The translations under genes were made by a program, and so were the position numbers. The notes below the pieces were generated by a model. That model ran no database searches. It saw only the letters and a list, made by a program, of their open reading frames with translations, and was not told the origin of the DNA. A stretch of 64,000 nucleotides of DNA from an uncultured Bacteroidota bacterium. GTDB lineage: Bacteria; Bacteroidota; Bacteroidia; Flavobacteriales; Flavobacteriaceae. Below, one piece after another: positions 46,915 through 64,000 of the stretch; positions within the stretch are counted from its first letter, which is position 1, and every line of letters begins with the position of its first letter. The stretch covers positions 1 through 64,000 of the forward strand of contig CACAZM010000006.1 of NCBI GenBank assembly GCA_902536935.1. The letters run 5' to 3'.

Positions 46915-49900
46915 CTAAAATATATATCGCAATCCAAATTGCATCTGCCATCTAGATTGTAAACTTGAGTCATAAACGAATGAATCAACTAAGTTATTAT
47001 CAAACGTGTAGCTTGGTACGCCATCTGTAACAGTTACACCAATTGGCTGAATGGAAGTTGGCTGTTGGACTAGCCCCCAATCTGAACTGATTAGGTTTCC
47101 AAGGTTTAGGATATCCATGCTAAATTGAATTACATTGGTCTTACCAGAGCTTCTTTGGATGCGGTAGTCCTGTAAAAAGCGCACATCCCAACGGCTCGTC
47201 CATGGACTCAGTGCTCCATAACGCTCCGCATACTTTCCTCTTCGGCTTTTCAAGTAGTCATCCTGTTCTATAAAAGCATTGTATGCACTTGCATCAGCAG
47301 GATTGGCAAAATTCATTTGCAACACCTGCGAGCTAGTTGGCACGTATAGTAAGTCATTTCCACCTCTTCCATCACCATTGATATCACCTGCATAGGTATA
47401 GCTATACCTTCCTCCTCTGTTGTATTCAAAGAAAGTTGTAATGGTTGACCCCCATCTATTATTTGTTCCATAGTTCCACGATTGACTAGCTACACCAATA
47501 ACTCTATGCATATCACCATATTTTGAGTAAGATAGATTTTCTGCGTTGGCATCACCCACAACAGGGTTGAAATCAAAAGCATCTCCTGTGATTTCAGCTT
47601 CGATTGAGTTTACGTCTTTTGCATTTAAATGATTGTATGCAAGACTAGTGTAAAGACCGCTATCAAACGTTTTTTGGAGTTTTAAAGAGTAATTCCAAAT
47701 TCTACCCAAATCTGAATTGGAGAAAACATATGCGCTAGCATTAGCAGGAAATGGGACGTCAACTTGCACAAAGTCTCCTTCTAAATATACTGCTCTATTG
47801 TCAACTCCTGACAGAGTACCAGATGGGGTTTTGAAGCCCCAGTTTTGAACTTGTGGGCCATTTATGTCTTTTGTGTATGAAACATCTAAAGATAGAGTAA
47901 GCTCATTATCATATTCTTGATCAATACCTAAATTAGTTCTCCAAACTTGAGGAAATTGGTAATCGGGATCAACCATTTGATGAAACCACCAGTTCGGGTT
48001 GCCGATTTGGTTACCCAACCACACAAAGGGAAAACGACCAGTAAACAGACCAGATCCACCACGAACCTGAGTGGTATCATCCCCATTTACGTCATAATTA
48101 AAGCCTAATCTTGGAGAAATCACCAATTTATCTGAGGGCATTTTTGTATTGTCTAGAAATTGAACTTGCCCAGTATTTGGATTAACATATGGAGTTTTTG
48201 GCGCATAATCGCCAGTACCATCAATCACTTCTTGTGCTTTTTTATCAGAATCAAAGTATAATGGTTTATCCATTCTCAACCCATAGGTCAATTTAAATTT
48301 ATCATTAACAAACCACTCGTCTTGAAGATAAAATGACATTTGACCAACATTGGTTTCGGCTAAGGACCAGCTATCGTTTTCATAGGTAGCAGTTGCTGCA
48401 GCAATTGCATCCCTAATCAAACCATTGTTTATCGCTGTTGTGAAATCGCTTAGTGATCCAAATGCTCCAAATGCACCCGCATATCCTCTGTCATCACCAT
48501 ATCCGTAAACCCCAAGGTTGAAAGAGTTGTCAAATTCAAATTTCTCATAAGAAAAACCTAGAGTGTAAGTATGGTTACCTTTTACAAAAGTTAAATTATT
48601 CGTCAGTTGCATCACTTTTTGATCCAATCGGTTATTTATTGAAAAAGGCTCGTGACCAACAATTATATAATTAGCTCCAGCTCCATCTTGGATTGTCATT
48701 GCAGGAGCTGGGCTTGACATAGGATTTCGGAAGTCATCAAAGTGGGTATACCCAATCTGTAGTTTGTTTGAAACTGCATCACTTAGGGTTGAGTTAAGCT
48801 CCATTTGAACAGAGTTCAATTTGTTGTTGATTTGATAACCGGAGTTTTCAAATTGTAAAATAGAAGCATTCGGTCCTCTAAACCCAAGTGCAGTTGGGTG
48901 TGCTGGCTTGTCCTTTGAAGCATCTAAAAAGTTGTAAATGAGTGCCATTCTATGGTTGTCATTGATGTTCCAGTCAAGCTTTACAATTCCCTTACTTGAA
49001 CCAGCCTCATGAATGAAGCCTTCGTAAGTGCCAGTGTCATATCCCAAGTCAGATAAAGCAGATTGTACAGTTATTAAATCGGATTCTAAAACTCGGGATT
49101 CATTAATACCTCCAGTTCCTCTATTTGGCAGCCATGATTGACCAAGATCTTCTCGATTATCCTGCTCAAAATTGAAAAAGAAAAAGAGTTTATTTTTGAT
49201 TATTGGTCCCCCAATGCTGATTCCTGTTTGAGACTGAAGAAGCTTAGGAACAAAAATACTTTGCCCCTTTATTTTAGAACCTGTCATATCTTCATTTCTG
49301 TAAAAACCGTAAAGAGTTCCGTTAAACTCATTAGTACCACTTTTAGTAACTGCATTTACCGAAGCACCAGTGAAACCAGCTTGAGTAACATCATAAGGCG
49401 CAGTTGAAACTGTGATTTGCTCAATAGCATCTATTGAAATTGGTTGAGCTTCTGTTTGTCCACCCGGCGTTGCTGCATCCAAACCAAATGGATTATTAAA
49501 TATTGCCCCATCAAGAGAATAATTGTTAAACTGATCATTGCGCCCGCCAAACGAACCGTTACTTGCTGTTGGCTCAAGGCGAGTATAATCTGAAGCTGAA
49601 CGGCTGATAGAGGGTAAGGTAGATAGCTGTCTTCGCCCAACACTTGTTTTAGCACCTGTTCGATCACTACTAAACACATCTGATGCGCTAGCTGTAACTA
49701 CTACGTTGTCTAACTCTTGTGAGTCGGGAATCATTGCAAATGAAATGGTTTCACTTTTACCCAGAGTAAGGAATATGTCTTCAAAATTTTGCTCATTAAA
49801 GCCAATATAACTGATAGAAACCGTGTAAGGTCCGCCTACACGCATGTTAACCATATTGAAGCGACCATCTTGATTGGTTACAACTCCATAGGTAGTACCT

Positions 49901-50043
49901 GTTGGTACGTGCACAGCAACCACATTGGCTCCTTCAAGCTCCATATTAGCATCATCAACGACAACTCCAGAAATCGATGATGTTGTTATCTGAGCAGAGA
50001 TAAATCCACTAATGAAGAGCAATAGTATAATTAGTTTTTTCAT
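46915..50043 (-). CDS. Oar-like TonB-dependent outer-membrane protein
   Basis: A 1042-residue outer-membrane protein. Signal peptide 1-18 (ending FISAQ), a carboxypeptidase-regulatory/CnaB-like domain (about 22-105; ISGVVVDDANMELEGANVV, VTNQDGRFNM), then an Oar-type plug (SASDYTRLEPTASNGSFGGRNDQ, IDAIEQITVSTAPYDV, FTGASVNAVTKSGTNEF) and a large barrel ending in QFGLRYIF. Oar proteins were described in Myxococcus as adhesion or transport proteins, some for protease export. It has a 200-base A+T-rich leader and stands alone without SusD or a lipoprotein partner, so its cargo is unknown. Confidence 0.9.
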   Translation of the reverse strand: MKKLIILLLFISGFISAQITTSSISGVVVDDANMELEGANVVAVHVPTGTTYGVVTNQDGRFNMVNMRVGGPYTVSISYIGFNEQNFEDIFLTLGKSETISFAMIPDSQELDNVVVTASASDVFSSDRTGAKTSVGRRQLSTLPSISRSASDYTRLEPTASNGSFGGRNDQFNNYSLDGAIFNNPFGLDAATPGGQTEAQPISIDAIEQITVSTAPYDVTQAGFTGASVNAVTKSGTNEFNGTLYGFYRNEDMTGSKIKGQSIFVPKLLQSQTGISIGGPIIKNKLFFFFNFEQDNREDLGQSWLPNRGTGGINESRVLESDLITVQSALSDLGYDTGTYEGFIHEAGSSKGIVKLDWNINDNHRMALIYNFLDASKDKPAHPTALGFRGPNASILQFENSGYQINNKLNSVQMELNSTLSDAVSNKLQIGYTHFDDFRNPMSSPAPAMTIQDGAGANYIIVGHEPFSINNRLDQKVMQLTNNLTFVKGNHTYTLGFSYEKFEFDNSFNLGVYGYGDDRGYAGAFGAFGSLSDFTTAINNGLIRDAIAAATATYENDSWSLAETNVGQMSFYLQDEWFVNDKFKLTYGLRMDKPLYFDSDKKAQEVIDGTGDYAPKTPYVNPNTGQVQFLDNTKMPSDKLVISPRLGFNYDVNGDDTTQVRGGSGLFTGRFPFVWLGNQIGNPNWWFHQMVDPDYQFPQVWRTNLGIDQEYDNELTLSLDVSYTKDINGPQVQNWGFKTPSGTLSGVDNRAVYLEGDFVQVDVPFPANASAYVFSNSDLGRIWNYSLKLQKTFDSGLYTSLAYNHLNAKDVNSIEAEITGDAFDFNPVVGDANAENLSYSKYGDMHRVIGVASQSWNYGTNNRWGSTITTFFEYNRGGRYSYTYAGDINGDGRGGNDLLYVPTSSQVLQMNFANPADASAYNAFIEQDDYLKSRRGKYAERYGALSPWTSRWDVRFLQDYRIQRSSGKTNVIQFSMDILNLGNLISSDWGLVQQPTSIQPIGVTVTDGVPSYTFDNNLVDSFVYDSSLQSRWQMQFGLRYIF

Positions 50044-50286: not shown

Positions 50287-50829
50287 TTATAAACTACAAC
50301 GATAGACAAAGGCAGGAGGGAAGTTTAGTAATGAAAAATTAATTTTCACCTTTCCAAAGTGGGTCTTCAATCTCCTATAGTCAAAAGGTGCATATTGAAA
50401 TTGTAGAAACTGACCTACCTCACTTAAAAAGTTAGTAGCATTTTGTAGAATGGATTCTTTTAGCTCTAGAGAAAACATGGAAAGTGGTAGGGATGAAATT
50501 ATATGATCAGCTTTTTCAAATTGATGTTTTCGTAAATACTTTCCAATATGTTCAGCACTTTCATTGATGATTACAACTCTTTCATCTTGGATTTCAGAAT
50601 TCAATTTTTTACAAAAAGCTTCATTAACTTCAAATACCAAAAGTTTACAATTCGGATTTAATAACTTTATAATTTCATGTGTAAAAACTCCTCTACCGCC
50701 TCCGAGTTCAACAATAACTTTCGCATCTATGTAGTTAAGGTTTCCAAACATAAACCTTCCCAAGGACTTACTGCTAGAGGATACTGCTCCAACACTTCTG
50801 TTTTTGATGAATTCGCTCAAGTATGACAT
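50287..50829 (-). CDS. SAM-dependent methyltransferase, phospholipid N-methyltransferase-like
   Basis: A 180-residue class I methyltransferase. The SAM site is VIVELGGGRGVFTHEI (about 38-53), followed by LLVFEVNEAF (acidic residue for the SAM ribose) and IISSLPLSMFS, where NLPF-like residues occur in related enzymes. The ending LNFPPAFVYRC is typical of the COG3963 group annotated as phospholipid N-methyltransferases. The substrate could also be RNA or another lipid. It is a single gene with its own terminator. Confidence 0.8.
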   Translation of the reverse strand: MSYLSEFIKNRSVGAVSSSSKSLGRFMFGNLNYIDAKVIVELGGGRGVFTHEIIKLLNPNCKLLVFEVNEAFCKKLNSEIQDERVVIINESAEHIGKYLRKHQFEKADHIISSLPLSMFSLELKESILQNATNFLSEVGQFLQFQYAPFDYRRLKTHFGKVKINFSLLNFPPAFVYRCSL

Positions 50830-50945
50830 AAACCCTAGTTTTTTTGGTCCTCGAATTTACTTATTTTTTGCGAGCATTTAAGAGGAATCAAAAACAAAAG
50901 TTTTTATGATTTACACTAGGTTTGACTCGAATTTAAATTTAGCTT

Positions 50946-53387
50946 TCACCTTTTTATGAGATTAAAATCTATCAAATAATTTATTCTTAGTGAAAACTGG
51001 TGCTGCGCAGTATGATCAAAAAGATTATTTAAGCTTCCTAAGTAATCAAGTTTTGTAGCACTATCTCTTTTGAATAATTGATTTCGGTATAATAGCACCA
51101 AATTACTTCCTGGGGCAAACCACCATTCAAAATTAATGTCAAGGTTCCAGATGTTAAAGTTTGTATCTGGGTCAAATTCTAGAACTGAAAAGTCTGTTAC
51201 GGTACGTTTTCCGTTTTCATTTAGTAGAAACAGATTACGATCGTACTTTGCTCTACTCCAATAGTTTCTAAGTTTTAAGTTAACCCATTTCTTACTATCA
51301 AAAAAGTAGTTAAGGTCAATGTTGTTTTCTATAGATTGAATATCTCTTATTCCAAAATAAATATTTTGGTTCATTGACTCAAGATATCCCACATCGTCCT
51401 TAAAATGAAGATGGCTGGACTTTACTTCTAATGAGAATTGTTCTGAAAAACGATAAAGTGTGGATAAATTAAGTCTATTTTGTGATTTTTTTTCTTCAAA
51501 ATCTTCTTTAAAATAGGAAAAGTTGTTCCATTGAATCCTATATGAGAAATCCTTATTTTTATTGGACTGCATCACCAGCTTTGCTTGGAAGTTCTCAGGT
51601 TCTTCTATGTAGCGGTCTAATGTTCTGGGTTTATCATAATCTCTTGTTTTAGATGAGTAAGCAAAATCAGCCTCAAAAACCATTAAGTTTTGTGTTGAGA
51701 AATCATTTCCAAACCTTATGCCCCATAACTTTCTTTCAGAAGAATGAAACGTTCGCGTGTTATGAAACCATAAATAGTTCCTGTACTTTCTAAGAAAGCC
51801 GTACTCTTTGAGAATTTGATAGCTTATCCTAGATGAAAAACTTTGATGATCTAAAAAATTAAAATATCCCAACTCATTCTGTTTGTAATGTTTATCAACA
51901 CCCCACCAGCTGACATTGTATCTAAAATTACCTTTGAGCTCACTCAAACTAATTCCTGACCTAAATCCATTTTTACTGTTATCTTTTGGTGCTTTACTGC
52001 CAAAAGCTTTTAACTTAACATTGAAGTCTCTGTTGTCATCAAACAAATCTGCTACAAATACAAAATTATTCCCATACAAACCATCATTTCCAGTTTTGTT
52101 GGTGTTAAGCATACTAACCGATGAATAGTCATTAAGCAGTTGCTGAGACAAGGAAAGTATATTATAATTTACCAAAGGTTGTATGGTTTGTTTCCTTCTT
52201 TGATTTGAAGATAAATTTTCGATTCCAGCATCAACCTTGTCAGTAATTGCGTTTAAGAAACCTAAGCTTAGGTTTTTATTTGTTGTTCCAGTTACCTTAA
52301 CCGTGTTTATTAATTGTGGGGTGTCATTAAAATCAAAAATCACCTCATCATTTTCAAGCAAATCGTCTCCTAGCGATACCTTTTCTCCAATCCTTCGGCT
52401 GTAAAAAAAAGATCCGCCGCCCATATCTCCGTCTGCAATCTCAAAAAGGGTGGCACCTTCCGTGAAAAAAGCTCTGTTTTCAGAGAATTGTTGCTCAAAA
52501 GGCCCTAGATTGAGTTCTACATTATCAAAGGCAACTTGGCCAAAATCTGGGATCAAAGATGCATCTAAGGTAAAACTGCTACTTAAACCGTATTTTAAGT
52601 CCATACCTGCTTTATAAGAAGTTGCTGGCTTCGCTCTTTTTTGAAGATTAATTGAAGACTGAACATAGGGATAAAAAAACAGTCTTACAGGGGGACTAAT
52701 ATTTTTTAATCCAGTTAGTGTTCCATTGGACTCATGATATTCCAATTCATTAACATTAACAGGACTCCACACAAAGGTTTCATCTAAACTTTGAATTTTT
52801 CTACCAAAGTTCAATCCCCATAGTTGTTCCTCTTTTTCAGGAAATCGAATGGCACTGTAAGGGATTGCCATTTCTACACTCCAACTATCTGAACTTATAT
52901 GAGTTTTAGCATCAAAAACAGTATCGTATAAAAAATCATCGGAGTCAATAGATCCAGAAGAATATACATCACCAACTGTACCAGCACTTGTTATTTGAAA
53001 ACCAAAAAAGTTTAAATCGTCGTTATATGTATTGAAAGTTACAAAAAAAGTTTCCGCATTTACATTCCAAATTTCATCACGCTGACTAAATTCTTTTGGC
53101 ATCTTGTCTGGATTTGGATGTTTGAGAATAGCACCAATATAAATCGAACTCTGATCATAACCCAAATATGCAACAGTCTCATAATTCGCGGGTATTTTAT
53201 TACCATGACGTGTTTCAGGCCACATCAGAGTGAAGTTAGTAGCAGGAACTAAATTGCTCCAAATCTTCTCAGATAATATTCCATCTATAATGGGTGCGCT
53301 TTCTACAGGAAATGCTTCATAACTCTTACTTTCTTGAGCTTGAATTATATTTAATATTAGAACAAGAGAAACAAATATATACCTCAC
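50946..53387 (-). CDS. DUF5916 protein with CBM9-like domain, outer-membrane
   Basis: An 813-residue exported protein. Signal peptide 1-18 (ending NIIQAQ), then a family 9 carbohydrate-binding-like domain (about 25-225; APIIDGILSEKIWSN, YLGYDQSSIYIGAIL, WSVEMAIPYSAIRFP). The DUF5916 region runs to the end with FTLDASLIPDFGQVAFDNVELNLGPFEQQFSENRAFFTEG split across residues about 280-320, and ends in beta strands that suggest a barrel. Start is GTG; upstream in-frame codons reach a stop. Such proteins are common in algal-polymer degraders; binding or gating of a carbohydrate is inferred. Confidence 0.85.
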   Translation of the reverse strand: MRYIFVSLVLILNIIQAQESKSYEAFPVESAPIIDGILSEKIWSNLVPATNFTLMWPETRHGNKIPANYETVAYLGYDQSSIYIGAILKHPNPDKMPKEFSQRDEIWNVNAETFFVTFNTYNDDLNFFGFQITSAGTVGDVYSSGSIDSDDFLYDTVFDAKTHISSDSWSVEMAIPYSAIRFPEKEEQLWGLNFGRKIQSLDETFVWSPVNVNELEYHESNGTLTGLKNISPPVRLFFYPYVQSSINLQKRAKPATSYKAGMDLKYGLSSSFTLDASLIPDFGQVAFDNVELNLGPFEQQFSENRAFFTEGATLFEIADGDMGGGSFFYSRRIGEKVSLGDDLLENDEVIFDFNDTPQLINTVKVTGTTNKNLSLGFLNAITDKVDAGIENLSSNQRRKQTIQPLVNYNILSLSQQLLNDYSSVSMLNTNKTGNDGLYGNNFVFVADLFDDNRDFNVKLKAFGSKAPKDNSKNGFRSGISLSELKGNFRYNVSWWGVDKHYKQNELGYFNFLDHQSFSSRISYQILKEYGFLRKYRNYLWFHNTRTFHSSERKLWGIRFGNDFSTQNLMVFEADFAYSSKTRDYDKPRTLDRYIEEPENFQAKLVMQSNKNKDFSYRIQWNNFSYFKEDFEEKKSQNRLNLSTLYRFSEQFSLEVKSSHLHFKDDVGYLESMNQNIYFGIRDIQSIENNIDLNYFFDSKKWVNLKLRNYWSRAKYDRNLFLLNENGKRTVTDFSVLEFDPDTNFNIWNLDINFEWWFAPGSNLVLLYRNQLFKRDSATKLDYLGSLNNLFDHTAQHQFSLRINYLIDFNLIKR

Positions 53388-53743: not shown

Positions 53744-54622
53744 ATGAAAAAAATTTTATTCCTTACACCATTATTTTTTATAAGTTTTTCTTACGGACAA
53801 ACATTTAGTGGTTTTGTGAAAAACCCTAGTTTCGAAGATGGCTCAATTGGAACTATAATTAAAAATCGATCTTATAATGATTGGAAATTAGGGGGTCCAA
53901 ATTCTGATGGTACTGGAGTTTCAGCAAGCATTCAAACAGCTAATGTCCATGCCGGAGATGGCACTAAAGCCTTAGAGGTCACTTCAGTAAATAACAATAC
54001 AGAATGGGGTATAAGACTTATCAACACAACATATCCTTTTGACGCAGATAATACAAATCCTATTGATGTTACAGTTTCATTTTGGGCAAAAACGTCTGAT
54101 ACTGATCCAGGGAGTGTGGTTCCTACTGGAGATATGAGATTATTAATAAAGGATACTGGTTCGTTGAACTATGCAAATGAAAAACAAACAGCTAATGGTT
54201 TTGTGGATAAAACACGTCGTGTTCTTCTTACTACTGATACATGGGTTTATATAACTAAAACTTTTACATTTCCAGCAGCAGAAAGTTATAATCTTTCTCT
54301 ATTTCTTGAATTTGGGAAAGTGGATGGTGTTACTCAAATAGACGGTATAACAACAACGGTTACTGGTGGTGCAACCTTATGAACACAAGACATAGCAAAA
54401 GATAAATCAAGTGTATCTTTTATCTAAATCCATCAACGGATTTCTTAAATTATAGATCTGAGGGAGTAAAAAATATTGAAGTATATAATTCGCTTGGTCA
54501 AAAATTAAATGAAGAAAAGGCTGATGGGAGTGTATACATCAGCTTTTCCTAAGGGTTCCTATTTACTAAAACTATTAGCTGATAACGGAGAGGTGTCAAC
54601 CAAACAATTTATTAGAGATTAA
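53744..54622 (+). pseudogene. Decayed secreted carbohydrate-binding-like protein with T9SS sorting domain
   Basis: The intact part (212 codons, 53744-54382) has a signal peptide (1-18, ending FSYGQ) and a jelly-roll resembling CBM4/9-type modules (NPSFEDGS, ALEVTSVNNNTEWGIRL, VTVSFWAKTSDTDPG, TWVYITKTFTFPA). It stops at TGA 54380. Beyond it, a T9SS sorting domain can still be read: DKSSVSF, a lost T in the run 54418-54421, YLNPSTDFLNYRSEG and IEVYNSLGQKL in another frame, an extra T in the run 54544-54547, then FPKGSYLLKLLADNG...KQFIRD back in the original frame to TAA 54620. The product would have been about 292 residues. The truncated protein may still be exported but would lack its surface anchor signal. 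Confidence 0.85.
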
Positions 54623-54675: not shown

Positions 54676-57171
54676 CTATTTAACTTTGAAGCTCCAAACG
54701 TTTCCTTTTTGAATTTTATTTTTGATAATTCCATCTATTCTCCAATAGTAGGTTTTTCCAGGGTTTAGTTTTCCTGGAGAATAGATATTATTTTTTTGAT
54801 TTCCTTTATACTCAGGTGATTTGTTAGATGCATATTTTACACTATTGAAATCTTCACCAAAATATATATCACTTGAATTAGCTTCATAAGCATTTAGCCA
54901 CATTAAATCTGCGTTAGTTTTAACTGTTTTAGATTTATTGGGGGGAACTGGTGTCGATGCTATTTTATCTTGAAATCCTGGGATCCAATAATTTATATCT
55001 CCAAACTCATAAGGACCAATATCTGGTGCTTTTCCTAAATATTGTATTTCTTTTCCTTCAACAAGTGATCCATTATCAACTAGCTCAGAGTCTTTTTTGG
55101 GTCTAAAGTCTAAATTATCAGGGTCTCTTAATTGACTTCTTATATCAGCATTTTTAAAATTACCAGACCAGTTATGATCGACTATTCCCGGGACGGGATA
55201 ATCTTTACCTGGTCTTGTTCTGTGCCCTGAAAATTTATTTGAGATATTGTTTCTGGTAATTGTTTCATAATTTCTTCCTTGAATAGACACTTTGCTAGAC
55301 ACAATTAAATCATTTAGACGATTATCAAAACTTAAATTATTGTAAATAAAATGTTTGTCTCCCTTAAAGAAAACTCTATCAGTTTTCCAGGCAACATTAT
55401 GGTGCATAGTTCCATTCTCACCCCATCGAGAATTTGGGAGATTCGAATTGTCAAAACGTAATCCAATTTTTACTGAATTGTGTACCCAATTATAACGTGT
55501 TTGAGATTGATCTTGTTCTTTTGCACTTATTTGGATGAGTGATCCGTCATTCTGTAAATATCCTGATCGAGATAAATTGTTTAATTCAATAGTATTTCTA
55601 GCACCTGCTTTATACATTTCTGAAGCTCCGGCAGTATGTACAGTATTTCTTCTAAATAATAAATCAGTTGATCTTAACATATTTATGGTATAACCTCCTC
55701 TAAAAGTGCAGCTGTAATCAATAGAATGCATATAATTATTTTCAACGATATTATTTGATCCATTCATATTAAGAACTGGCCCATCCATATATTCAAATTT
55801 GCAATTTCTTATAATGTTGAATGATTCACTTTCATTCTTTTTCATTAACATAGAAGTTACTTTTATTTGGGACAGATCATTCAACATTCGCTTGGAATAA
55901 CTTGGGTATTTGAAATTGCAATTTTCAATAGTTATGTTATTACTTTCATAAGTATTAAATGTTGTTCCAAAGAAATTTATCCCTTGAATTTTTATGTGTG
56001 ATGAGTTCTGAATATCAAAAGCATAAGATTGTGTTTTTCCTCTAATTTCAAATCCTCTAGGATGTCTTCCTTTGGGAGTCCATAAATAAACTGTCTTACT
56101 TTTTGCATTGTAGAACCACTCATTTTCTTCATCCAATAACCCCAATTTACCCTCTAAAAAATAACCGTGTCTTTCCACTTTGCCTTCATAGCTGAAATGT
56201 ACTTTTATACCTTTCCTTTTAGTGTCGTATTTAAAATTGTCAGTATTGGGGCTATGCTCAATCACATTAGATTTAAAAGTTTTAAATGAACCTGAATTTA
56301 CAAGAATAATTGCTCCTGTTAAGTCTTCGTTTATCAAAGCTAATTCTTTATTGAAGTGATGTCCATAACTACTTTTTTCTTTTTCAGGCCAAGCCATTGA
56401 TTTGGTTTTATCCCAAACGGATCCATCATACCAATTTCCATTTGGCCATCTGGCTGAAGTCATACTTTTTTTATTTACGAATAATTGCCAGATATCTTTT
56501 TTGATTTTAGCTTTATAAATATTACCGTCGTACTTTCTCCAAGTTGTTTTTATCAATTCGGTTCCATCTAAAACAACATTTTCGTTCTTGTATGCCTTGA
56601 ATGTTATAGGGGAATTATATTTTCCGTGGGTTTCATACAACGAGATAGTTTCATGATAAATTCCTTCTCGAATATAACATGTATCACCAGCTTGCATTTC
56701 TTTTGAAGCTTTTGAAATTGTTTTAAAAGGCTTGTTAAAAGTTCCTGGGTTGGAATCTTCTCCCTTAGGGGAAACGTAAAAGGAGGTAACTGTTAAACGT
56801 ACTTTTTTGTCTTTAGATTTACTTTTTTTTGATTTTAGATAAGCATTGTATTTTGCTTTAAAGTAATCATGATATTTTATCATTTTTTCTTGTCCTACGA
56901 CATCCTTTACCATTTCATTGTAAATTGGATTTAGTTTTTCAATTTCCCCTCTTAATGTATCCTTATCGTCTTTGTATTTGTTTCTCAGAAGGTTGAATTC
57001 AGTCTCTTTTTCAACAAGTATATCATAAACCTGTACATTTTCGGTTTCTGTTAATCCTAAGATTTCTGATAATTTTTCTGTGTTTTCTTTAGCGAAGATT
57101 TCTGCCCTTGTTTGGGCATTTATAGAACCCGTAATTATAAATCCAAATAACAATAAGAACAGTTTTTTCAT
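54676..57171 (-). CDS. Secreted right-handed beta-helix protein with N-terminal helical domain, candidate carbohydrate-active enzyme
   Basis: An 831-residue exported protein; signal peptide 1-19 (ending SINAQ). Residues about 20-110 form a charged helical domain homologous to the small protein at 63556-63897. A right-handed parallel beta-helix region follows, opening with the DUF1565-like FYVSPKGEDSNPGTFNKPFKTI and containing repeated NITIENC- and NNIVENN-like turns and ARWPNG. It ends with APDIGPYEFG. The last 90 residues are fibronectin type III-like (PGKTYYWRIDG). The layout fits beta-helix glycoside hydrolases or lyases such as GH141-like proteins, but the family and catalytic residues are not assigned. 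It is divergent from the fucose operon. Confidence 0.8.
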   Translation of the reverse strand: MKKLFLLLFGFIITGSINAQTRAEIFAKENTEKLSEILGLTETENVQVYDILVEKETEFNLLRNKYKDDKDTLRGEIEKLNPIYNEMVKDVVGQEKMIKYHDYFKAKYNAYLKSKKSKSKDKKVRLTVTSFYVSPKGEDSNPGTFNKPFKTISKASKEMQAGDTCYIREGIYHETISLYETHGKYNSPITFKAYKNENVVLDGTELIKTTWRKYDGNIYKAKIKKDIWQLFVNKKSMTSARWPNGNWYDGSVWDKTKSMAWPEKEKSSYGHHFNKELALINEDLTGAIILVNSGSFKTFKSNVIEHSPNTDNFKYDTKRKGIKVHFSYEGKVERHGYFLEGKLGLLDEENEWFYNAKSKTVYLWTPKGRHPRGFEIRGKTQSYAFDIQNSSHIKIQGINFFGTTFNTYESNNITIENCNFKYPSYSKRMLNDLSQIKVTSMLMKKNESESFNIIRNCKFEYMDGPVLNMNGSNNIVENNYMHSIDYSCTFRGGYTINMLRSTDLLFRRNTVHTAGASEMYKAGARNTIELNNLSRSGYLQNDGSLIQISAKEQDQSQTRYNWVHNSVKIGLRFDNSNLPNSRWGENGTMHHNVAWKTDRVFFKGDKHFIYNNLSFDNRLNDLIVSSKVSIQGRNYETITRNNISNKFSGHRTRPGKDYPVPGIVDHNWSGNFKNADIRSQLRDPDNLDFRPKKDSELVDNGSLVEGKEIQYLGKAPDIGPYEFGDINYWIPGFQDKIASTPVPPNKSKTVKTNADLMWLNAYEANSSDIYFGEDFNSVKYASNKSPEYKGNQKNNIYSPGKLNPGKTYYWRIDGIIKNKIQKGNVWSFKVK

Positions 57172-57405: not shown

Positions 57406-58194
57406 ATGATAGAACCAAAATTTTCCTTAAAAAATAAAGTGAGTTTGATTACCGGTGGTGGAAGTGGCATTGGCAAAGCAATCGCAAAAACTTTTGCAAT
57501 GCAAGGTTCATACGTCTATATACTTGACTACAACGAAATAACAGCTGCTGAGGTGGTTCTTGAAATTAATAATGAGGGATTTAAGTCCAAAGCATATAAA
57601 TGTGATGTCTCAAAATCAGAAGAAGTATCAAATGTAATAGAGAAAATTTCACAAGAATCTTCGATTGACATTTTAGTAAACAACGCTGGCATCGCTCATG
57701 TAGGAAATATTGAAATGTGCGAAGAAGAAGACTTGGATAGACTTTACAATATTAATATTAAAGGAGTTTTTAATTGTTTAAAAGCTTGTATACCCCTTAT
57801 GAAAATCAATGGTGGTGGTGTAGTTCTAAATTTAGCCTCTATCGCATCTTCTGTTGGGATATCAGATCGTTTTGCATATTCAATGTCTAAAGGAGCTGTT
57901 CTAACAATGACTTATGCAATTGCTAAGGATTACATTGACCATAATATCCGTTGTAATTGTATTTCACCAGCTCGAGTTCACACTCCATTTGTAGATGGAT
58001 TCATAAAGAAAAATTATCTTGGTAAGGAAGAAGAAATTTTTGAAAAGCTTTCAAAAACACAACCCATTGGACGTATGGGAAAGCCACAAGAAATAGCAGA
58101 TTTGGCATTGTTTTTATGTAGTGATGAAGCGAGTTTTATTACAGGTTCAGACTACGGAATTGATGGCGGGTTTATAACACTTAATTCAAAATAA
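57406..58194 (+). CDS. SDR-family dehydrogenase, probable 2-keto-3-deoxy-L-fuconate dehydrogenase
   Basis: A 262-residue classical short-chain dehydrogenase. The cofactor motif is TGGGSGIG (16-23) with Asp41 favouring NAD, the NNAG motif is at 92-95, and the catalytic Ser145, Tyr158 and Lys162 are present. The segment CISPARVHTPFVDGFI is characteristic of SDRs that neighbour FAH-family hydrolases in Bacteroidota sugar-acid loci. Context (FAH hydrolase seven bases downstream, fuconolactonase remnant, lactate dehydrogenase, fucosidase) points to oxidation of 2-keto-3-deoxy-L-fuconate. First gene of the operon. The exact substrate is inferred. Confidence 0.85.
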   Translation: MIEPKFSLKNKVSLITGGGSGIGKAIAKTFAMQGSYVYILDYNEITAAEVVLEINNEGFKSKAYKCDVSKSEEVSNVIEKISQESSIDILVNNAGIAHVGNIEMCEEEDLDRLYNINIKGVFNCLKACIPLMKINGGGVVLNLASIASSVGISDRFAYSMSKGAVLTMTYAIAKDYIDHNIRCNCISPARVHTPFVDGFIKKNYLGKEEEIFEKLSKTQPIGRMGKPQEIADLALFLCSDEASFITGSDYGIDGGFITLNSK

Positions 58195-58201
58195 ATCTAT
58201 T

Positions 58202-59056
58202 ATGAAACTTATTCGATTTGGGGAAACCAATAAAGAAAAACCTGGTGTAATTTTATCAAATGGAAAAAAAATAGATGTCTCAGATTTTGTTACAGATTAT
58301 GATGAAAACTTTTTTGGAAATGATGGAATTGAGAAATTAAGAGATTGGTTGTCAAAAAATCAAGATTCTTGCCCAGAAATTCATGATGATATCCGATTAG
58401 GATCTCCATTGAGTCGTCCTTCAAAAATAGTATGCGTCGGATTAAATTATGCCAAGCATGCTGCTGAAAGTGGTATGGATATTCCCGAAGAACCCGTACT
58501 TTTTTTTAAATCTACTTCATCTATAGTTGGGCCCTTTGACCCGATCGTAATTCCAAAGGGAAGTGAAAAAACAGATTGGGAGGTTGAATTAGCTGTTGTA
58601 ATTGGTAAGAGTGCATCATATATATCCGAAGCAGATGCGCTAAATCACGTAGCAGGCTATGTGTTGCACAATGACGTTAGTGAACGTGCATTTCAATTGG
58701 AAAAATCAGGTCAATGGGTAAAGGGAAAAAGCTGTGATACTTTTGCTCCATTGGGCCCATTTATCGCAACGACGGATGAAATTAATAACCCCAATGACTT
58801 AAATCTTTGGTTGAAGCTCAATGGAGAAATAATGCAAGATAGTAGTACATCAGATTTTATATTCAACATTCAAGAAGTCGTAAGCTACATCAGTCAATTC
58901 ATGACCTTACTTCCTGGAGATATTATTTCAACCGGAACACCCTTTGGAGTTGGATTGGGTTTAAATCCTCCTCGATATCTGAAAGAAGGTGATGTAGTCG
59001 AACTGGGGATAGATGGTTTAGGTATTGCAAGACAATCATGTAAAGCATATAAATGA
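58202..59056 (+). CDS. Fumarylacetoacetate hydrolase family protein, probable 2,4-diketo-3-deoxy-L-fuconate hydrolase
   Basis: A 284-residue FAH-family enzyme. The N-terminal small domain is followed by the catalytic core with VCVGLNYAKHA, the metal-binding WEVELAVVIG (two Glu) and HNDVSERAF with Asp, KGKSCDTFAPLGP and STGTPFGVG. In the non-phosphorylating L-fucose pathway such an enzyme cleaves 2,4-diketo-3-deoxy-L-fuconate to pyruvate and L-lactate. Its stop overlaps the start of the lactonase remnant as ATGA. The family also includes ureidoglycolate lyase-like annotations, but the neighbours support fuconate breakdown. Confidence 0.85.
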   Translation: MKLIRFGETNKEKPGVILSNGKKIDVSDFVTDYDENFFGNDGIEKLRDWLSKNQDSCPEIHDDIRLGSPLSRPSKIVCVGLNYAKHAAESGMDIPEEPVLFFKSTSSIVGPFDPIVIPKGSEKTDWEVELAVVIGKSASYISEADALNHVAGYVLHNDVSERAFQLEKSGQWVKGKSCDTFAPLGPFIATTDEINNPNDLNLWLKLNGEIMQDSSTSDFIFNIQEVVSYISQFMTLLPGDIISTGTPFGVGLGLNPPRYLKEGDVVELGIDGLGIARQSCKAYK

Positions 59057-59217
59057 TTATTGATATTCATTACCATTTTTGGAAAAATATTGCTTTTTGG
59101 GATGTATGGATTGAGCAGTCTATGTCTGTGATTCGAAAAGATTTTCTTCCAACAGATTTGGAATCTTTTTTTCAAGAAAACGTGGTTGCAAAAAATTTAT
59201 GGCTTAAATCAAAATGA
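59053..59217 (+). pseudogene. Remnant of L-fuconolactonase (amidohydrolase family)
   Basis: A 54-codon reading frame that starts with the N-terminus of COG3618-type amidohydrolases: MIIDIHYHFW (metal-binding HxH, here HYH) followed by MSVIRKDFLPTDLESFF. Full-length L-fucono-1,5-lactonases have about 270-290 residues; about 80 percent is missing. The last ten residues (VAKNLWLKSK) resemble the family's C-terminal ending, so an internal in-frame deletion joining the two ends is possible. The start still overlaps the FAH stop (ATGA), and the lldD-like ATG follows immediately after the stop, so the remnant still sits in the translational chain. It is unlikely to be active. Confidence 0.75.
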
Positions 59218-60372
59218 ATGAAATTAGAAATAAATTATAAATACCCCTCAGTGCCAGATCTTAAAGCACGTGCAAAAAGAAAAATTCCAAAATTTGCTTT
59301 TGAATATTTAGATGGAGGGTGTAACGATGATGTAAACCTCAAAAAGAATACAGATCGGATTAGAGCTGTAGAGCTAAAGCCAAAATATCTAGTTGAGTAT
59401 ACACCACCTAGCTTAAAAACGAAACTTTTTGGACATACATACGACGCACCCTTCGGTATTTCGCCAGTCGGCTTGCAAGGACTGATGTGGCCCAAGTCAC
59501 CAGAGATATTAGCCAGAGCAGCATTTGATCATAATATTCCTTTTGTATTAAGTACTGTTACCACAGCTAGTATTGAAAAAATTGCTGAAATTACAGAAGG
59601 TAATGCTTGGTTTCAGCTTTATCATCCTTCAGAGGAACGAGTCACCAAAGATATTTTGAAACGCGCCGAAGCAGCAGGATGCCCTGTATTGATTATCCTT
59701 GCTGATGTTCCTTCTTTTGGTTATCGCCCTAGAGATATTCGTAATGGTTTGTCCATGCCACCAAAAATGACTTTGACCAATATTATTAATGCAGCTAAAA
59801 GACCCCATTGGGCATTGCAAACTTTAATTCATGGTCAACCAAGTTTCGAGATACTCAAACCTTATATGTCAAAAAACTTAAATTTAAATCAACTTGCTAA
59901 ATTTATGGATGCTACGTTCTCAGGTCGTTTAGATGAAGAAAAAATCAAAAAGATTCGTCATCTGTGGAAAGGTAAATTAGTGCTCAAAGGAGCTGAGTCT
60001 GCTCATGATGTAGAAAAAGCTTACCAACTGGGCTTAGACGGAGTTATTATTTCCAATCATGGTGGACGTCAAGTTGACGTTGGTCAAGCGACTATAGATT
60101 CATTAAAAGACATTGCACCACTTTATAAAGACAAGTTAACTGTGATGATGGATAGTGGTATTCGAGGTGGGGCTGATGTGGCGCGCGTGATGGCAAGTGG
60201 AGCGGATTTTAGTTTTTTAGGTCGTACTTTTATGTATGGTGTTTCTGCTCTTGGAAAAAAAGGAGGGCATCATACAATTGCGATGTTAAAAACACAATTG
60301 ACTCAAGTCATGGAGCAGCTAAGTTGTGCACAAATTGATGATTTACAAAGTAAAATAATTCAAACTTTATAA
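59218..60372 (+). CDS. lldD: FMN-dependent alpha-hydroxy-acid dehydrogenase, probable L-lactate dehydrogenase
   Basis: A 384-residue member of the lactate dehydrogenase/glycolate oxidase family. It has the FMN-binding barrel with APFGISPVGLQGL, WFQLYHP, the catalytic histidine in ISNHGGRQVD (about 279-288), and MMDSGIRGGADVARVMASGADF with FLGRTFMYG at the phosphate site. It starts directly after the lactonase remnant. In this operon it would oxidise the L-lactate produced from fuconate to pyruvate, feeding electrons to the respiratory chain. A different 2-hydroxy acid cannot be excluded. Confidence 0.85.
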   Translation: MKLEINYKYPSVPDLKARAKRKIPKFAFEYLDGGCNDDVNLKKNTDRIRAVELKPKYLVEYTPPSLKTKLFGHTYDAPFGISPVGLQGLMWPKSPEILARAAFDHNIPFVLSTVTTASIEKIAEITEGNAWFQLYHPSEERVTKDILKRAEAAGCPVLIILADVPSFGYRPRDIRNGLSMPPKMTLTNIINAAKRPHWALQTLIHGQPSFEILKPYMSKNLNLNQLAKFMDATFSGRLDEEKIKKIRHLWKGKLVLKGAESAHDVEKAYQLGLDGVIISNHGGRQVDVGQATIDSLKDIAPLYKDKLTVMMDSGIRGGADVARVMASGADFSFLGRTFMYGVSALGKKGGHHTIAMLKTQLTQVMEQLSCAQIDDLQSKIIQTL

Positions 60373-60404: not shown

Positions 60405-61919
60405 ATGAAAAAATTAGGCTATCTCTTTTTAAAAGCGAGAACTATGCATTTGGTGCTCCTTATGCTAATATTCAATGTTGTTAATAGTCAGACCAATGCT
60501 TTGAACATGTCATCTGTTGACAGTACTTCATATAAAAAGATGCAGAATTCAAAACACAAAGCCATTAGTCATTTTAATGATTCTAAATATGGTATGTTTA
60601 TTCATTGGGGATTATATGCTATACCCGGGGGAGTGTGGAAAAATCAAAGGATGGAGGATTTGAAAGGTCCAAAAGTGGCAGAGTGGATCCAACTCGCGGC
60701 ACAAATTCCAAGAAATGAATATTCGGAATTAGCTAAACAATTTAATCCAACTAATTTTGATGCCACTGCTATTGCCAAATTAATCAAATCTGCTGGAATG
60801 AAGTATTTAGTTATTACTGCAAAGCATCACGATGGTTTTGCGCTCTATGACTCTGAGGTAAGTAAGTATAATATTGTAGATGCTACCCCTTACAAAACTG
60901 ATGTTATTGATGCGTTATATGAAGCATGTAAATCTGAAGGTATCGATTTTGGTTTATACTACTCACACAATATTGATTGGTTTGATGGTAATGATTGTGG
61001 TTATAGTGAAATCATGGCATCTGGTTTACCCTTAAACGAAAAAGCCCAAAGAAAATTTGGAGCTAATACCTGGGATCCTAGTCCGAATACATTCTCAGAT
61101 TATCTATATAAAAAAGCTTTTCCTCAAGTCAGAGAATTGCTTACCAAGTATGCTGACATGACAACCTTGTGGTATGATATGCCACATTATTTAACCCCAA
61201 AACAGAGTTATGAATTTTATAAACTAGCATATGACTATCAACCTCAATTATTAATAAATTCTAGAGTTGGCAATTCCCTTGGTGATTTTGATATTCCAGG
61301 TGATAATAAAATTCCTGAAAACCCACTGAGTATCTCAAAACCTTGGCAAACAGTTGGAACTACAAATAATTCTTGGGGGTTTAAATCTTATGATAATGAT
61401 TGGAAAAGCCCTAATGAACTTTTGTTTTGGCTCATTGAAATTGTTAGTAAAGGAGGAAATTATATGCTAAATATTGGGCCAGACAGTATGGGAGATGTAC
61501 CAGAAACATCTTTTAAAAATTTAATTGCCCTTGGAAACTGGTTGAAAATTAATGGTGAAGGCATTTACAATACTAAACGTTGGAAAATTACCCATGAGGG
61601 TCCTACCCAAATTTTTATGAAGGGCACAAATCATAGAGAAAAGAATAAAGGTAAATCTCTAGAATTTACTACCAAAGATTTTTGGTTTACCATCAATTCT
61701 AATTACCTGTTTGCAACAGCTTTGGTTTATCCTCAAGAAAACGAATCTATAATCATAGAAAGTTTGTCAAAATTTTCGGGGTATAAAGTAAAAAGCGTAA
61801 ACCAACTAGGATCTATAAATTCGATAAAATGGAAGCAAACCAAAACCGGTTTGAGAATTAGTGGGGTACAGAGAACAACTTCCGGATTGGGTTACACATT
61901 AAAAATTGATATAGATTAA
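60405..61919 (+). CDS. GH29 alpha-L-fucosidase, secreted
   Basis: A 504-residue glycoside hydrolase family 29 enzyme releasing terminal L-fucose. The N-terminus holds a signal peptide ending VVNSQ; a second ATG at codon 14 gives a neater one and may be the true start. The catalytic barrel shows [26 protein letters not shown] (140-148) and the probable nucleophile Asp258 in [21 protein letters not shown] and a C-terminal beta domain follow. It lies 32 bases after the lactate dehydrogenase gene and supplies the substrate for the enzymes upstream in the operon. Confidence 0.93.
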
Positions 61920-61986: not shown

Positions 61987-63513
61987 TTACAATTTGGTAG
62001 TTCCCTTAGTTTTTACAATTTTTTCTTCTTTTCCTTCCGCTGAATTTGGGTCAGGGTAACCAGAACCCTCAAAAACATCTTTTGCCCAACCCTGGTGAAG
62101 TGCAAGTAGTTCTTTTAATATTTTGGGTTCTTTCAATGAATAATTTATTTCTTCTGGTTTTTCATCATCTAAGTTGGCTAAGTAGTATTCAGGCATTTCA
62201 AATTCCTTTTCAGGATGAATAGAGAACTTTCCTGTGGTATCATGGCCATCATAAATAAGTTTCCAGTTTCCTTTTCTAACTGCCCACATACCTTGCCACA
62301 TCCAATGCATAACTTCGTGAGGTGATTTAGCATCATCAGATTTTATAATATCTAAAATACTTTTGCCATCGAGTTTATTCTTTGGTTTTGGAATATCAAG
62401 TATTTCACAAATGGTAGGTAGTATATCAAGATTTACAATTGCTTGATCTCTTGTTTCACCTTGTGGAAATAATTTAGGATAACTTATTACCGCTGGTACT
62501 CTAATGCCACCTTCAAAGAAGCTACCTTTTGCACCTCGCCATTTTCCAGTAAAGCCGCCTCCACCATTTCCTCCATAACTTTCATTCCAGTTATAATAAT
62601 CTTCAGTTGAGTGCCCATTATCACTCATATAAATTATTATGGTGTTGTCTCTTAATCCAAGTTCGTCTAGTTTTTCTAAAATTTGCCCCATTCTGTGGTC
62701 AAGAGTGGTAATCATTGGTGCGTATGAGCTTCTGGGCCATTCTAGATGTTTATATTGTTTTATGAAAGTTGAATCCGGTTGCTCAGGATAGTGCGGTAGA
62801 CTAAACGGAACATAAAGGAAGAAAGGATCATTTTTACTTTCTTCTAAAAACCTATTTGCCTCTGAAACCTGCATATCTGGAAAATACTTTCCATCTTCAA
62901 ATATTTCTTCTTTATTTTTATAAAGATCATGGAATTGTGGTCTTTGCCAATTCGCATGTAAAAATTTATGAGAATAATAATCAATAAAACCTCCTCTAAA
63001 ACCAAAGAATTCATCAAACCCTTGATCTAAAGGCCCATGATCCATGGTCGCTCCCAGATGCCATTTTCCAATTAGTCCAGTCTTGTAGCCATAGGATTTT
63101 AAATGCTCAGCAATTGTAATTTCTTTAGGATCCATTACGCGACCTTGATGGTCGTCGGGATGACAAGAGGTCCATTGATTAACTCCACTACGTTGTGGCG
63201 CACGGCCGGTTAAAAGTGCAGCTCTAGAGGGACAACAAACCGTATGACCATAGGCTTGTGTAAATTTTATTCCTTGAGTGGCTAACTTGTCTAAAACTGG
63301 TGTTTGAATGTCAGATGCGCCATAGCACCCAGCATCTAGAGTTCCTTGGTCGTCAGTAAAAAAAAGTAGTATGTTGGGTTTTTTCTCGTTTAACCTTGCA
63401 GTCGACGTTTCTTTTGCTGTGCTTTTATTTTGTGAATTGGTATTACAAGAAGTTAGGCTCGCAACTACAATGATAGTTACAATCTTGAAGAAAGTATTTT
63501 TTATGACTCGCAT
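61987..63513 (-). CDS. Sulfatase (S1 type), lipoprotein
   Basis: A 508-residue sulfatase. The N-terminus is a lipoprotein signal with lipobox LTSC (Cys23). The metal-binding start PNILLFFTDDQG gives Asp54 and Asp55, and the formylglycine motif is CCPSR with Cys93 (CxPSR type, needs a formylglycine-generating enzyme not seen here). Further motifs are TGLIGKWHLG, FLYVPFSLPHYP and YMSDNGHS. The ATG at 63513 is preferred to a TTG two codons upstream. Its position facing the GH29 gene suggests removal of sulfate from fucose-containing polymers; the exact subfamily cannot be told. Confidence 0.92.
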   Translation of the reverse strand: MRVIKNTFFKIVTIIVVASLTSCNTNSQNKSTAKETSTARLNEKKPNILLFFTDDQGTLDAGCYGASDIQTPVLDKLATQGIKFTQAYGHTVCCPSRAALLTGRAPQRSGVNQWTSCHPDDHQGRVMDPKEITIAEHLKSYGYKTGLIGKWHLGATMDHGPLDQGFDEFFGFRGGFIDYYSHKFLHANWQRPQFHDLYKNKEEIFEDGKYFPDMQVSEANRFLEESKNDPFFLYVPFSLPHYPEQPDSTFIKQYKHLEWPRSSYAPMITTLDHRMGQILEKLDELGLRDNTIIIYMSDNGHSTEDYYNWNESYGGNGGGGFTGKWRGAKGSFFEGGIRVPAVISYPKLFPQGETRDQAIVNLDILPTICEILDIPKPKNKLDGKSILDIIKSDDAKSPHEVMHWMWQGMWAVRKGNWKLIYDGHDTTGKFSIHPEKEFEMPEYYLANLDDEKPEEINYSLKEPKILKELLALHQGWAKDVFEGSGYPDPNSAEGKEEKIVKTKGTTKL

Positions 63514-63555
63514 CGTCAAAAAATTTAGAATAAAGGATGTTTGATAGAGATAACT

Positions 63556-63897
63556 CTATTTTTTAGAATTTTCCCTTTTTGCTCTAAAATGTGCATGTAT
63601 TTTCTGCATACTTTCGCCTCCAAGAAAATCTTTCATAACACGGTTTGTAGCTTTGTTTAATACTTTCATTTCAGCTTTGAAAGTTTCATTATTATCTTTG
63701 TGTTTTTCTTTTAAAACTGTAATTTTTTTCTCCTTTGCTAAAAGAGCCTCGTATACTTTTACAGTTTCTTCTTTATCAAGCGATAATACTTTAACAATTT
63801 CATCAGTTCTATTCTGAGCTTTTTTTTCTTCTTTGGATTGGGCAGAGACCGAAAATGTAAAGAATAATAAAACGATTGAGGTGATAATATGTTTCAT
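63556..63897 (-). CDS. Small secreted helical protein, paralogous to the N-terminal domain of the beta-helix protein
   Basis: A 113-residue exported protein: signal peptide 1-20 (MKHIITSIVLLFFTFSVSAQ) and a charged helical domain. About 85 residues align without gaps to residues 20-110 of the beta-helix protein at 54676, with about 31 identities by eye, including VYxxL, KEK/KE, LN...N, MKDxxG and HxxFxAK. It resembles in style the short helical DUF3826 or Spy/CpxP-like proteins, but no family is assigned. The ATG at 63897 fixes the signal peptide. It is 42 bases upstream of the sulfatase and probably cotranscribed. Confidence 0.8.
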   Translation of the reverse strand: MKHIITSIVLLFFTFSVSAQSKEEKKAQNRTDEIVKVLSLDKEETVKVYEALLAKEKKITVLKEKHKDNNETFKAEMKVLNKATNRVMKDFLGGESMQKIHAHFRAKRENSKK

Positions 63898-63926
63898 AAC
63901 CTTTAGTTTATAATTTATTTTAATAA

Positions 63927-63934
63927 CAAAGTTA
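63927..63934 (-). promoter_or_regulatory. Possible -7 element of the small protein/sulfatase unit
   Basis: TAACTTTG on the minus strand (63934-63927) matches TAnnTTTG and lies 29 bases before the ATG at 63897. It sits inside a short inverted repeat AATAAC/GTTATT. No -33 element is clear. Confidence 0.4.
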
Positions 63935-64000
63935 TTTTTGAAACGTAATTTTCTTATAATCATTTATTTCAAAAATTACCACAAAAGTTACAAATGCTAA

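Follow-up and report, generated by a model that had tools for sequence, protein, structure and literature searches.

A helical domain with LTxxQ/Spy kinship, fused to a GH141-like enzyme and free beside sulfatases in a marine Flavobacteriaceae lineage

The first 64 kb (hereafter the window) of contig CACAZM010000006.1, an 82.9 kb contig in the 1.56 Mb, about 78% complete genome of an uncultured Flavobacteriaceae bacterium (GCA_902536935.1), carry an open reading frame (ORF) of 831 amino acids (54676-57171, minus strand) in which a small helical domain precedes a beta-helix enzyme resembling glycoside hydrolase family 141 (GH141), together with a free copy of the same domain, which we call FREE1 (63556..63897, minus strand), beside a sulfatase gene. 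The two copies are homologous, the domain is related by profile to LTxxQ proteins, the clade to which it belongs is linked to sulfatases, an orthologous locus holds the enzyme and the domain as separate genes, and the fusion is conserved in four genomes. Tentatively, and with somewhat less than even confidence, we read the domain as a Spy-like, ATP-independent periplasmic folding or assembly helper dedicated to enzymes of its own locus and fused in cis to one of them in one marine lineage; the periplasmic location, physical interaction, chaperone activity and substrate in this reading are inferred.

Results

The 831-residue protein consists, on the minus strand throughout, of a signal-peptide-like start (residues 1-19, 57115..57171, judged by eye), the N-terminal helical domain (residues 20-115, 56827..57114), placed as a putative LTxxQ/Spy-superfamily relative by alignment, profile comparison and model, a basic linker (residues 116-128, 56788..56826) recognised by its charge and by the model, in which the predicted local distance difference test score (pLDDT) falls under 50 at residues 117-126, the GH141-like enzyme body (residues 129-740, 54952..56787) and a C-terminal module (residues 741-831, 54679..54951). 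FREE1, identified by alignment and an AlphaFold2 model, lies within an ORF at 63556-63963, and its 113-residue protein begins at the ATG at 63897. An earlier note on this DNA, made from the sequence alone, had proposed a gapless alignment of the two copies with about 31 identities and a signal peptide before each; the alignment indeed runs without gaps over residues 1-107, with 31 identities in the 87 mature positions (residues 21-107), and both proteins open, by eye, with a signal-peptide-like stretch ending in ..AQ. The mature parts score 166 under BLOSUM62, compared with a mean of 36 (sd 6.7, maximum 65) for 2000 shuffles, a mean of 46 (maximum 105) for 2000 shuffles in 7-residue blocks, and 39 for the reversed sequence. 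Because the observed score lies far above all three controls, we take the likeness to be homology rather than a resemblance between unrelated coiled coils, which the same note had raised as the case against its own proposal.

Neither Pfam nor NCBIfam has a model that the helical domain itself matches above cut-off, the sub-cut-off Pfam matches of FREE1 (best FAM76, E 0.0027) look like chance, and the viral contigs searched held no relative. In an AlphaFold2 model of the mature part of FREE1, built from a 32-member family alignment (mean pLDDT 95.5), helices are predicted at residues 3-19, 23-46, 51-73 and 75-93, and two half-motifs fall at the H1-H2 and H3-H4 junctions; with its signal peptide (by eye) and four helices, this would be a small secreted all-helical domain, as in the LTxxQ/Spy superfamily. 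Comparison by hhalign of family alignment A4 with three flavobacterial proteins of LTxxQ/DUF4890 type gave a probability of 96.4, an E of 1.1e-9 and a score of 54, where controls scored at most 16 (60 column-shuffled), at most 25 with probability 33 (60 block-shuffled) and 11 (reversed); the smaller alignment A3 gave probability 94.6 and score 46, with controls at most 28. The type of the three comparison proteins is itself given by weak Pfam matches, LTXXQ in one of them (E 6.5e-5) and DUF4890 in two (best E 0.00083). Among the 32 family members, 17 match DUF4890 (PF16231) and two match LTXXQ (PF07813; best E 0.091), whereas the window copies match neither over cut-off.

Relatives were sought in 299 genomes. 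Since many rows of a first scan that included the signal peptide (110 genomes, a count not used here) matched only profile positions 1-40, the scan was repeated with mature domains, which placed relatives in 45 of the 299 genomes (49 rows). A tree of 80 domain sequences (quick method, 97 columns) splits, with SH-aLRT support of 100, into a clade A of 34 rows, including all window copies, and a clade B of 46 rows. At the places of the two LTxxQ motifs the window copies read LDKEE/LGGES and LTETE/VGQEK, and the second-motif form [LIVA]Gx[EDA][KRSD] is present in 29 of the 34 clade-A rows versus 2 of the 46 in clade B. Given this changed motif pair together with the profile kinship, the helical domain is read as a diverged branch of the LTxxQ/Spy superfamily rather than as a strict member of the LTXXQ family. 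A metal sensor of the CnrX/ZraP type was considered and rejected, with Cys in 2 and His in 23 of the 34 clade-A rows.

Genomic context was fetched for all but six of the 49 mature-domain rows (those in G194, G105, G027, G167 and G043 and one of two in G288); a second listing of 38 rows comprised 15 with context, two that were the window's own, and 21 without. Of 18 clade-A loci, 14 have a sulfatase in the 10-19 kb examined, and of 41 clade-B loci none does (Fisher 2e-10); the background figure for these genomes is 3 of 20 stretches (p 2e-4 for clade A against background). When only sulfatases on the same strand and no more than 5 kb away are counted, the figures for the two clades are 10 of 18 and 0 of 41. 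These counts exclude the fusion loci, which are the finding itself, and three loci found through the enzyme (L176-L178); they include L099, a different locus in a genome of the same genus (G300), while L052, below the domain threshold, falls in neither clade count. The background stretches were taken at hand-chosen offsets on 19 contigs, 5 of the 20 holding a sulfatase or SusD, and proteins from these very loci served to build the profiles by which sulfatases and SusD were detected. The link to sulfatase and fucosidase loci that the earlier note had suggested thus held on profile search, and fucosidase neighbours recur (L050, L123, L176 and L178), adjoining the helical gene in the first two. 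Among the next genes of the eight loci that score highest are sulfatases, SusD, GH92, an esterase, a phosphomannose isomerase and proteins with a type IX secretion system (T9SS) tail, and L124 has a GH120-type beta helix. The helical-domain branch is mostly tied to polysaccharide-utilisation loci (PULs), and outside the window's lineage the analysis met it solely as a gene by itself, often co-directional with sulfatases, fucosidases or secreted T9SS-cargo proteins. In L034-L037 the helical gene lies 13-19 bp upstream of a gene for a T9SS-tailed protein of about 500 residues, so that the helical part comes first, as in the fusion.

This two-gene unit recurs near SusC/D in four Flavobacteriaceae (L034:6574-8428, L035:6477-8352, L036:6465-8379 and L037:6442-8283), and its larger partner has, by eye, a repetitive, beta-helix-like N-terminus. 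Clade-B genes (109-129 amino acids) can also be paired, here with a longer LTxxQ-type gene (146-155 amino acids), near housekeeping-looking genes in several Flavobacteriaceae (L045:7394-8250, L047:7743-8608 and L048:8182-9104).

The fusion is present in 4 of the 13 genomes of the genus sample, the window genome included, the other three (G306, G308 and G309, recorded as AG-908-E14, AH-326-E05 and AG-920-I17, the two sets of names being unpaired) matching all 831 residues at 91-92%. An assembly artefact is ruled out as its origin, since the fusion is contiguous and this similar in three other assemblies. All four genomes share an order of two beta-helix proteins, three sulfatases, FREE1 and a fourth sulfatase, followed on the other strand by a fucosidase and a three-gene block, and then by the fusion. 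The earlier note's count of two copies stands for the window, where both are homologous, but the three relatives carry a third, FREE2, a free protein of 116 residues encoded directly behind the fusion. FREE2 and the fused domain are 84-85% identical in DNA over 369-389 bp, a match that starts 14-40 bp before the start codon and ends at FREE2's last codons, after which the fusion continues into its linker; at the protein level FREE2 is 84-87% identical to the relatives' fused domain. A DNA comparison with the three relatives found FREE2 to be absent from the window genome's locus, which may reflect either loss there or gain by tandem duplication in the sister lineage: the tree joins FREE2 with the relatives' fused domain (support 80), whereas synonymous divergence (dS) points the opposite way. 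Between the window and its three relatives the ratio of nonsynonymous to synonymous divergence (dN/dS) is 0.29-0.31 for the fused domain, about 0.06 for the enzyme body and 0.16-0.21 for FREE1, values by which the fused domain, kept in four genomes at a dN/dS of about 0.3, is estimated to be under purifying selection.

The enzyme body passes the Pfam cut-off for Pel9A-like_beta_helix alone, GH141_M staying under it (E 0.0057), and in a moderate model of the whole protein (mean pLDDT 71) its top Foldseek match, and best solved match, is the GH141 protein BT_1002 (5mqp; E 3e-20, TM 0.44 by query and 0.60 by target). By this model the body has a GH141-type, right-handed beta-helix fold. GH141 members, among them the endo-fucanases Wf141_1-4, degrade fucoidan (PMC12786026), and the GH141-like enzyme probably acts on a sulfated fucose glycan. 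A scan with one peptide pattern over 84,980 species genomes yielded 216 relatives of the enzyme, of which the best 80 were kept, some in loci where the enzyme N-terminus is missing (e.g. L180 and L230). Among unfused orthologues, the closest are those of two Polaribacter records (71% identity) and one Flavobacteriaceae record (L177, 69%); each begins with a plain signal-peptide-like stretch, and the helical domain is encoded on its own, 1.6 kb downstream of the enzyme. Their loci (L176-L178) share the order BH736, BH760, enzyme, sulfatase 3 and helical gene, followed by a fucosidase and a regulator in the two Polaribacter records and by a GH141-like gene in L177; a Puteibacter orthologue (60%) had no helical gene within the 14 kb examined. 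With the enzyme unfused and the helical gene separate in L176-L178, enzyme and helical gene make a Rosetta-stone pair.

Around these genes, FREE1 sits between two sulfatases, and one of them (61987..63519, minus strand; PF00884, E 2.7e-54) begins 36 bp downstream of it on the same strand. On the plus strand lie a GH29 alpha-L-fucosidase (60405..61919; PF01120, E 4.4e-79) and the three-gene block (57406..60372), whose products, named by eye as a short-chain dehydrogenase/reductase (SDR), a hydrolase of fumarylacetoacetate hydrolase (FAH) type and a flavin mononucleotide (FMN)-dependent alpha-hydroxyacid dehydrogenase, look like fucose or deoxysugar catabolism; the block is conserved in G306, G308 and G309. 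The locus continues past the window end and, followed to 81 kb, holds three more sulfatases, a GH141-like paralogue and a second GH29 fucosidase (by similarity), together with two more beta-helix proteins and a large sensor-regulator (named by eye). FREE1 therefore lies inside the locus, and the earlier description of the two copies as flanking it had to be given up. The GH141-like paralogue at L033:12515-14650 shares 43% identity with the body of the fusion, lacks a helical domain, and ends, by eye, in what resembles a T9SS sorting tail; Pfam finds no such tail on the fusion's C-terminal module, a poorly modelled region delimited by rows whose match is confined to this end of the query and found on other proteins too. 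With a T9SS-like tail on the paralogue, it and the fusion may act in different compartments.

Beyond the fusion, a 212-residue ORF (53744..54382, plus strand) joins a short N-terminal stretch to the C-terminal module that, in the relatives, belongs to a GH141-like protein; the ORF aligns to residues 625-831 of the 912-residue form, the enzyme part being missing. That protein, of 911-912 residues, is intact in G306, G308 and G309. With this short ORF and the missing FREE2 side by side, the end of the locus differs between the genomes by at least one deletion or insertion. After the fusion region the window encodes a DUF5916 protein, an OlsG-like methyltransferase and a TonB-type outer-membrane protein (50287-53387 and 46915-50043), none of which has a match in the stretches of the three relatives' loci examined.

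Discussion

Under the reading we tentatively prefer, the clade-A protein would help secreted enzymes of its locus to fold or assemble in the periplasm without ATP. One marine lineage would have attached a complete copy, with its signal peptide, to a GH141-like enzyme through a basic, flexible linker, so that the fusion would deliver the helper in cis to its enzyme, while free copies would keep serving other enzymes of the locus or pair with the fused copy. A parallel to the role proposed here is offered by operon-encoded steric chaperones such as lipase-specific foldase, a helical protein of the periplasm that is dedicated to a secreted client and encoded beside it. Among LTxxQ relatives, CpxP and CnrX act in sensing.

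Spy itself is described as an ATP-independent periplasmic chaperone with two LTxxQ motifs and a cradle-shaped dimer (PMC4791398). The window domain resembles Spy and CpxP of the LTxxQ family (PF07813) in Escherichia coli in being a small, secreted helical protein, in its profile kinship by way of flavobacterial proteins, and in the two half-motifs at helix starts of its model; it differs in that its clade is without the strict motif, has a second motif mostly like LGx[ED][KRS], is linked to PULs and includes one enzyme-fused copy. The earlier note's phrase 'chaperone-like' fits this superfamily by profile, the chaperone role being our conjecture, whereas its statement that no described system matched went too far, the superfamily being a described relative. 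Spy-like proteins exist elsewhere in the Bacteroidota: Phocaeicola vulgatus has M0N98_01576 and M0N98_01970, a SusC/D pair lies immediately downstream of the region of the second, and Bacteroidales spy genes stand in operons behind sigma/anti-sigma factors, service to glycan enzymes being unshown in that text (PMC13114119).

Several observations weigh against a Spy-like helper. A search of solved structures with the family profile gave nothing significant (best E 0.046, a Mediator subunit). One block-shuffled control of A3 reached probability 42, and the three LTxxQ-type proteins came from weak matches of a two-sequence seed profile (E 0.02-0.09); having surfaced in that search, they were not a blind choice. 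The strict motif L[TS]xxQ occurs at least once in 4 and twice in none of the 34 clade-A rows, compared with 41 and 26 of the 46 in clade B. The fold matches listed, which reach an E of 0.67 at best in Foldseek and a Z of 8.1 at most in VIA (inside the noise range of helical bundles), include neither Spy nor CpxP chains, although, with no significant Foldseek match at all, the missing chains say little. Four clade-A loci (L041, L044, L051 and L117) have housekeeping-looking surroundings, and the sulfatases of L043 and L044 are more than 5 kb away on the other strand. The amino acids of the fused domain change about six times as fast as those of the enzyme body (dN 0.12-0.13 vs 0.02). Finally, no fused helical domain was found in 77 of the 80 best enzyme-related loci, the other three being the relatives, so that most such enzymes do without it.

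The domain may instead be an assembly module, used for dimerisation or docking, with fused and free domains forming a stable complex that would hold the GH141-like enzyme beside sulfatases and with no role in folding; we consider this rather unlikely, though the strongest of the rivals. All four genomes retain the fused domain and free copies in the same locus, and FREE2 is so close to the relatives' fused domain that mixed assemblies could form, but the window genome is without FREE2, and FREE1 shares about 35% identity with the fused domain, which makes a mixed complex less obvious. The nearest published layout, in which a secreted domain exists both on a glycan enzyme and as a protein by itself, is that of BT1017 and BT1022, which we take to belong to one locus. 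In the rhamnogalacturonan II (RG-II) system, DUF3826 is the C-terminal domain of the pectin methylesterase BT1017 and is free as BT1022, neither BT1017-DUF3826 nor BT1022 bound RG-II by isothermal titration calorimetry (ITC), and the catalytic module of BT1017 was active alone (PMC7939467). The parallel, which differs from the window protein in its C-terminal rather than N-terminal fusion, warns that the helical domain, too, may be a subunit with no known use. The DUF3826 structures 3kdw and 3g6i (BT1022) also rank second and fourth among VIA matches, over residues 1-94 (93 aligned; Z 6.9 and 6.8, rmsd 3.2), behind an unrelated-looking Salmonella protein (Z 8.1). Kinship with DUF3826 is not significant by sequence: hhalign gave probabilities of 4.9 and 8.5 and scores of 21.7 and 22.9, slightly above the control maxima of 20.4 and 18.8, and PF12875 had no match in any of 20 genomes tried, the window genome included, in a search that does pick it up in 5 of 148 genomes of the phylum. 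Membership in the DUF3826 family, which the fold match had suggested, is accordingly not supported by sequence, and DUF3826 was kept as an analogue.

Binding of sulfated, acidic glycan, by a basic helical patch that would keep the enzyme on sulfated oligosaccharides, appears improbable. Loci of the high and middle groups have a median net charge per residue of 0.103, against 0.053 in lower-scoring members of the domain family that come from the same taxonomic family (Mann-Whitney p 0.001), and the unfused copies carry net charges of +18 and +17 (Polaribacter) and +10 (L177). However, the middle group in that test was hand-picked, and was later replaced by the tree split and locus counts; the window's fused domain has a net charge of -1; and the DUF3826 pair, its nearest parallel, bound no RG-II (PMC7939467).

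We give similarly little credence to a passenger, a small locus-borne gene fused by chance and kept as harmless. The fused domain does evolve fast relative to the body, and no fused copy was found among the 80 best related loci beyond the three relatives, but its dN/dS is about 0.3 and not 1, the frame is kept in four genomes, FREE1 is in all four, and the clade as a whole is linked to sulfatases. A sensor or regulator of envelope stress or of the locus, in the manner of CpxP or CnrX, is very unlikely: such relatives sense, Bacteroidales spy genes follow sigma/anti-sigma pairs in the account cited above, and the locus holds a large sensor-regulator (by eye), but a sensor would not ordinarily be expected on a catalytic enzyme, Cys is scarce in clade A, and no sigma/anti-sigma pair or dedicated kinase was noticed beside the PUL copies, although no search was aimed at them and, by eye, an ORF resembling a sensor lies about 1 kb away in L041.

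Among the titles and abstracts listed by searches of mostly open-access literature on LTxxQ/Spy, CpxP, DUF4890, DUF3826, GH141 and PUL chaperones, none describes clade A or the fusion. To our knowledge, the folding and solubility of marine Bacteroidota sulfatases and beta-helix glycanases during export have been little studied, and these enzymes matter for algal carbon turnover. A broader proposal, which we hold to be doubtful, is that marine Flavobacteriaceae have, within their sulfated-glycan loci, a dedicated class of periplasmic chaperones derived from Spy and tuned to hard-to-fold sulfatases and beta-helix enzymes, of which the open-ocean lineage would offer a natural chaperone-enzyme fusion. 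Such a small gene class, without a Pfam name of its own and easily left 'hypothetical', would be a new accessory part of these loci. The natural fusion offers a direct comparison of an enzyme with and without its domain, and, if the domain is a helper, it could aid the production of sulfatases and beta-helix glycanases.

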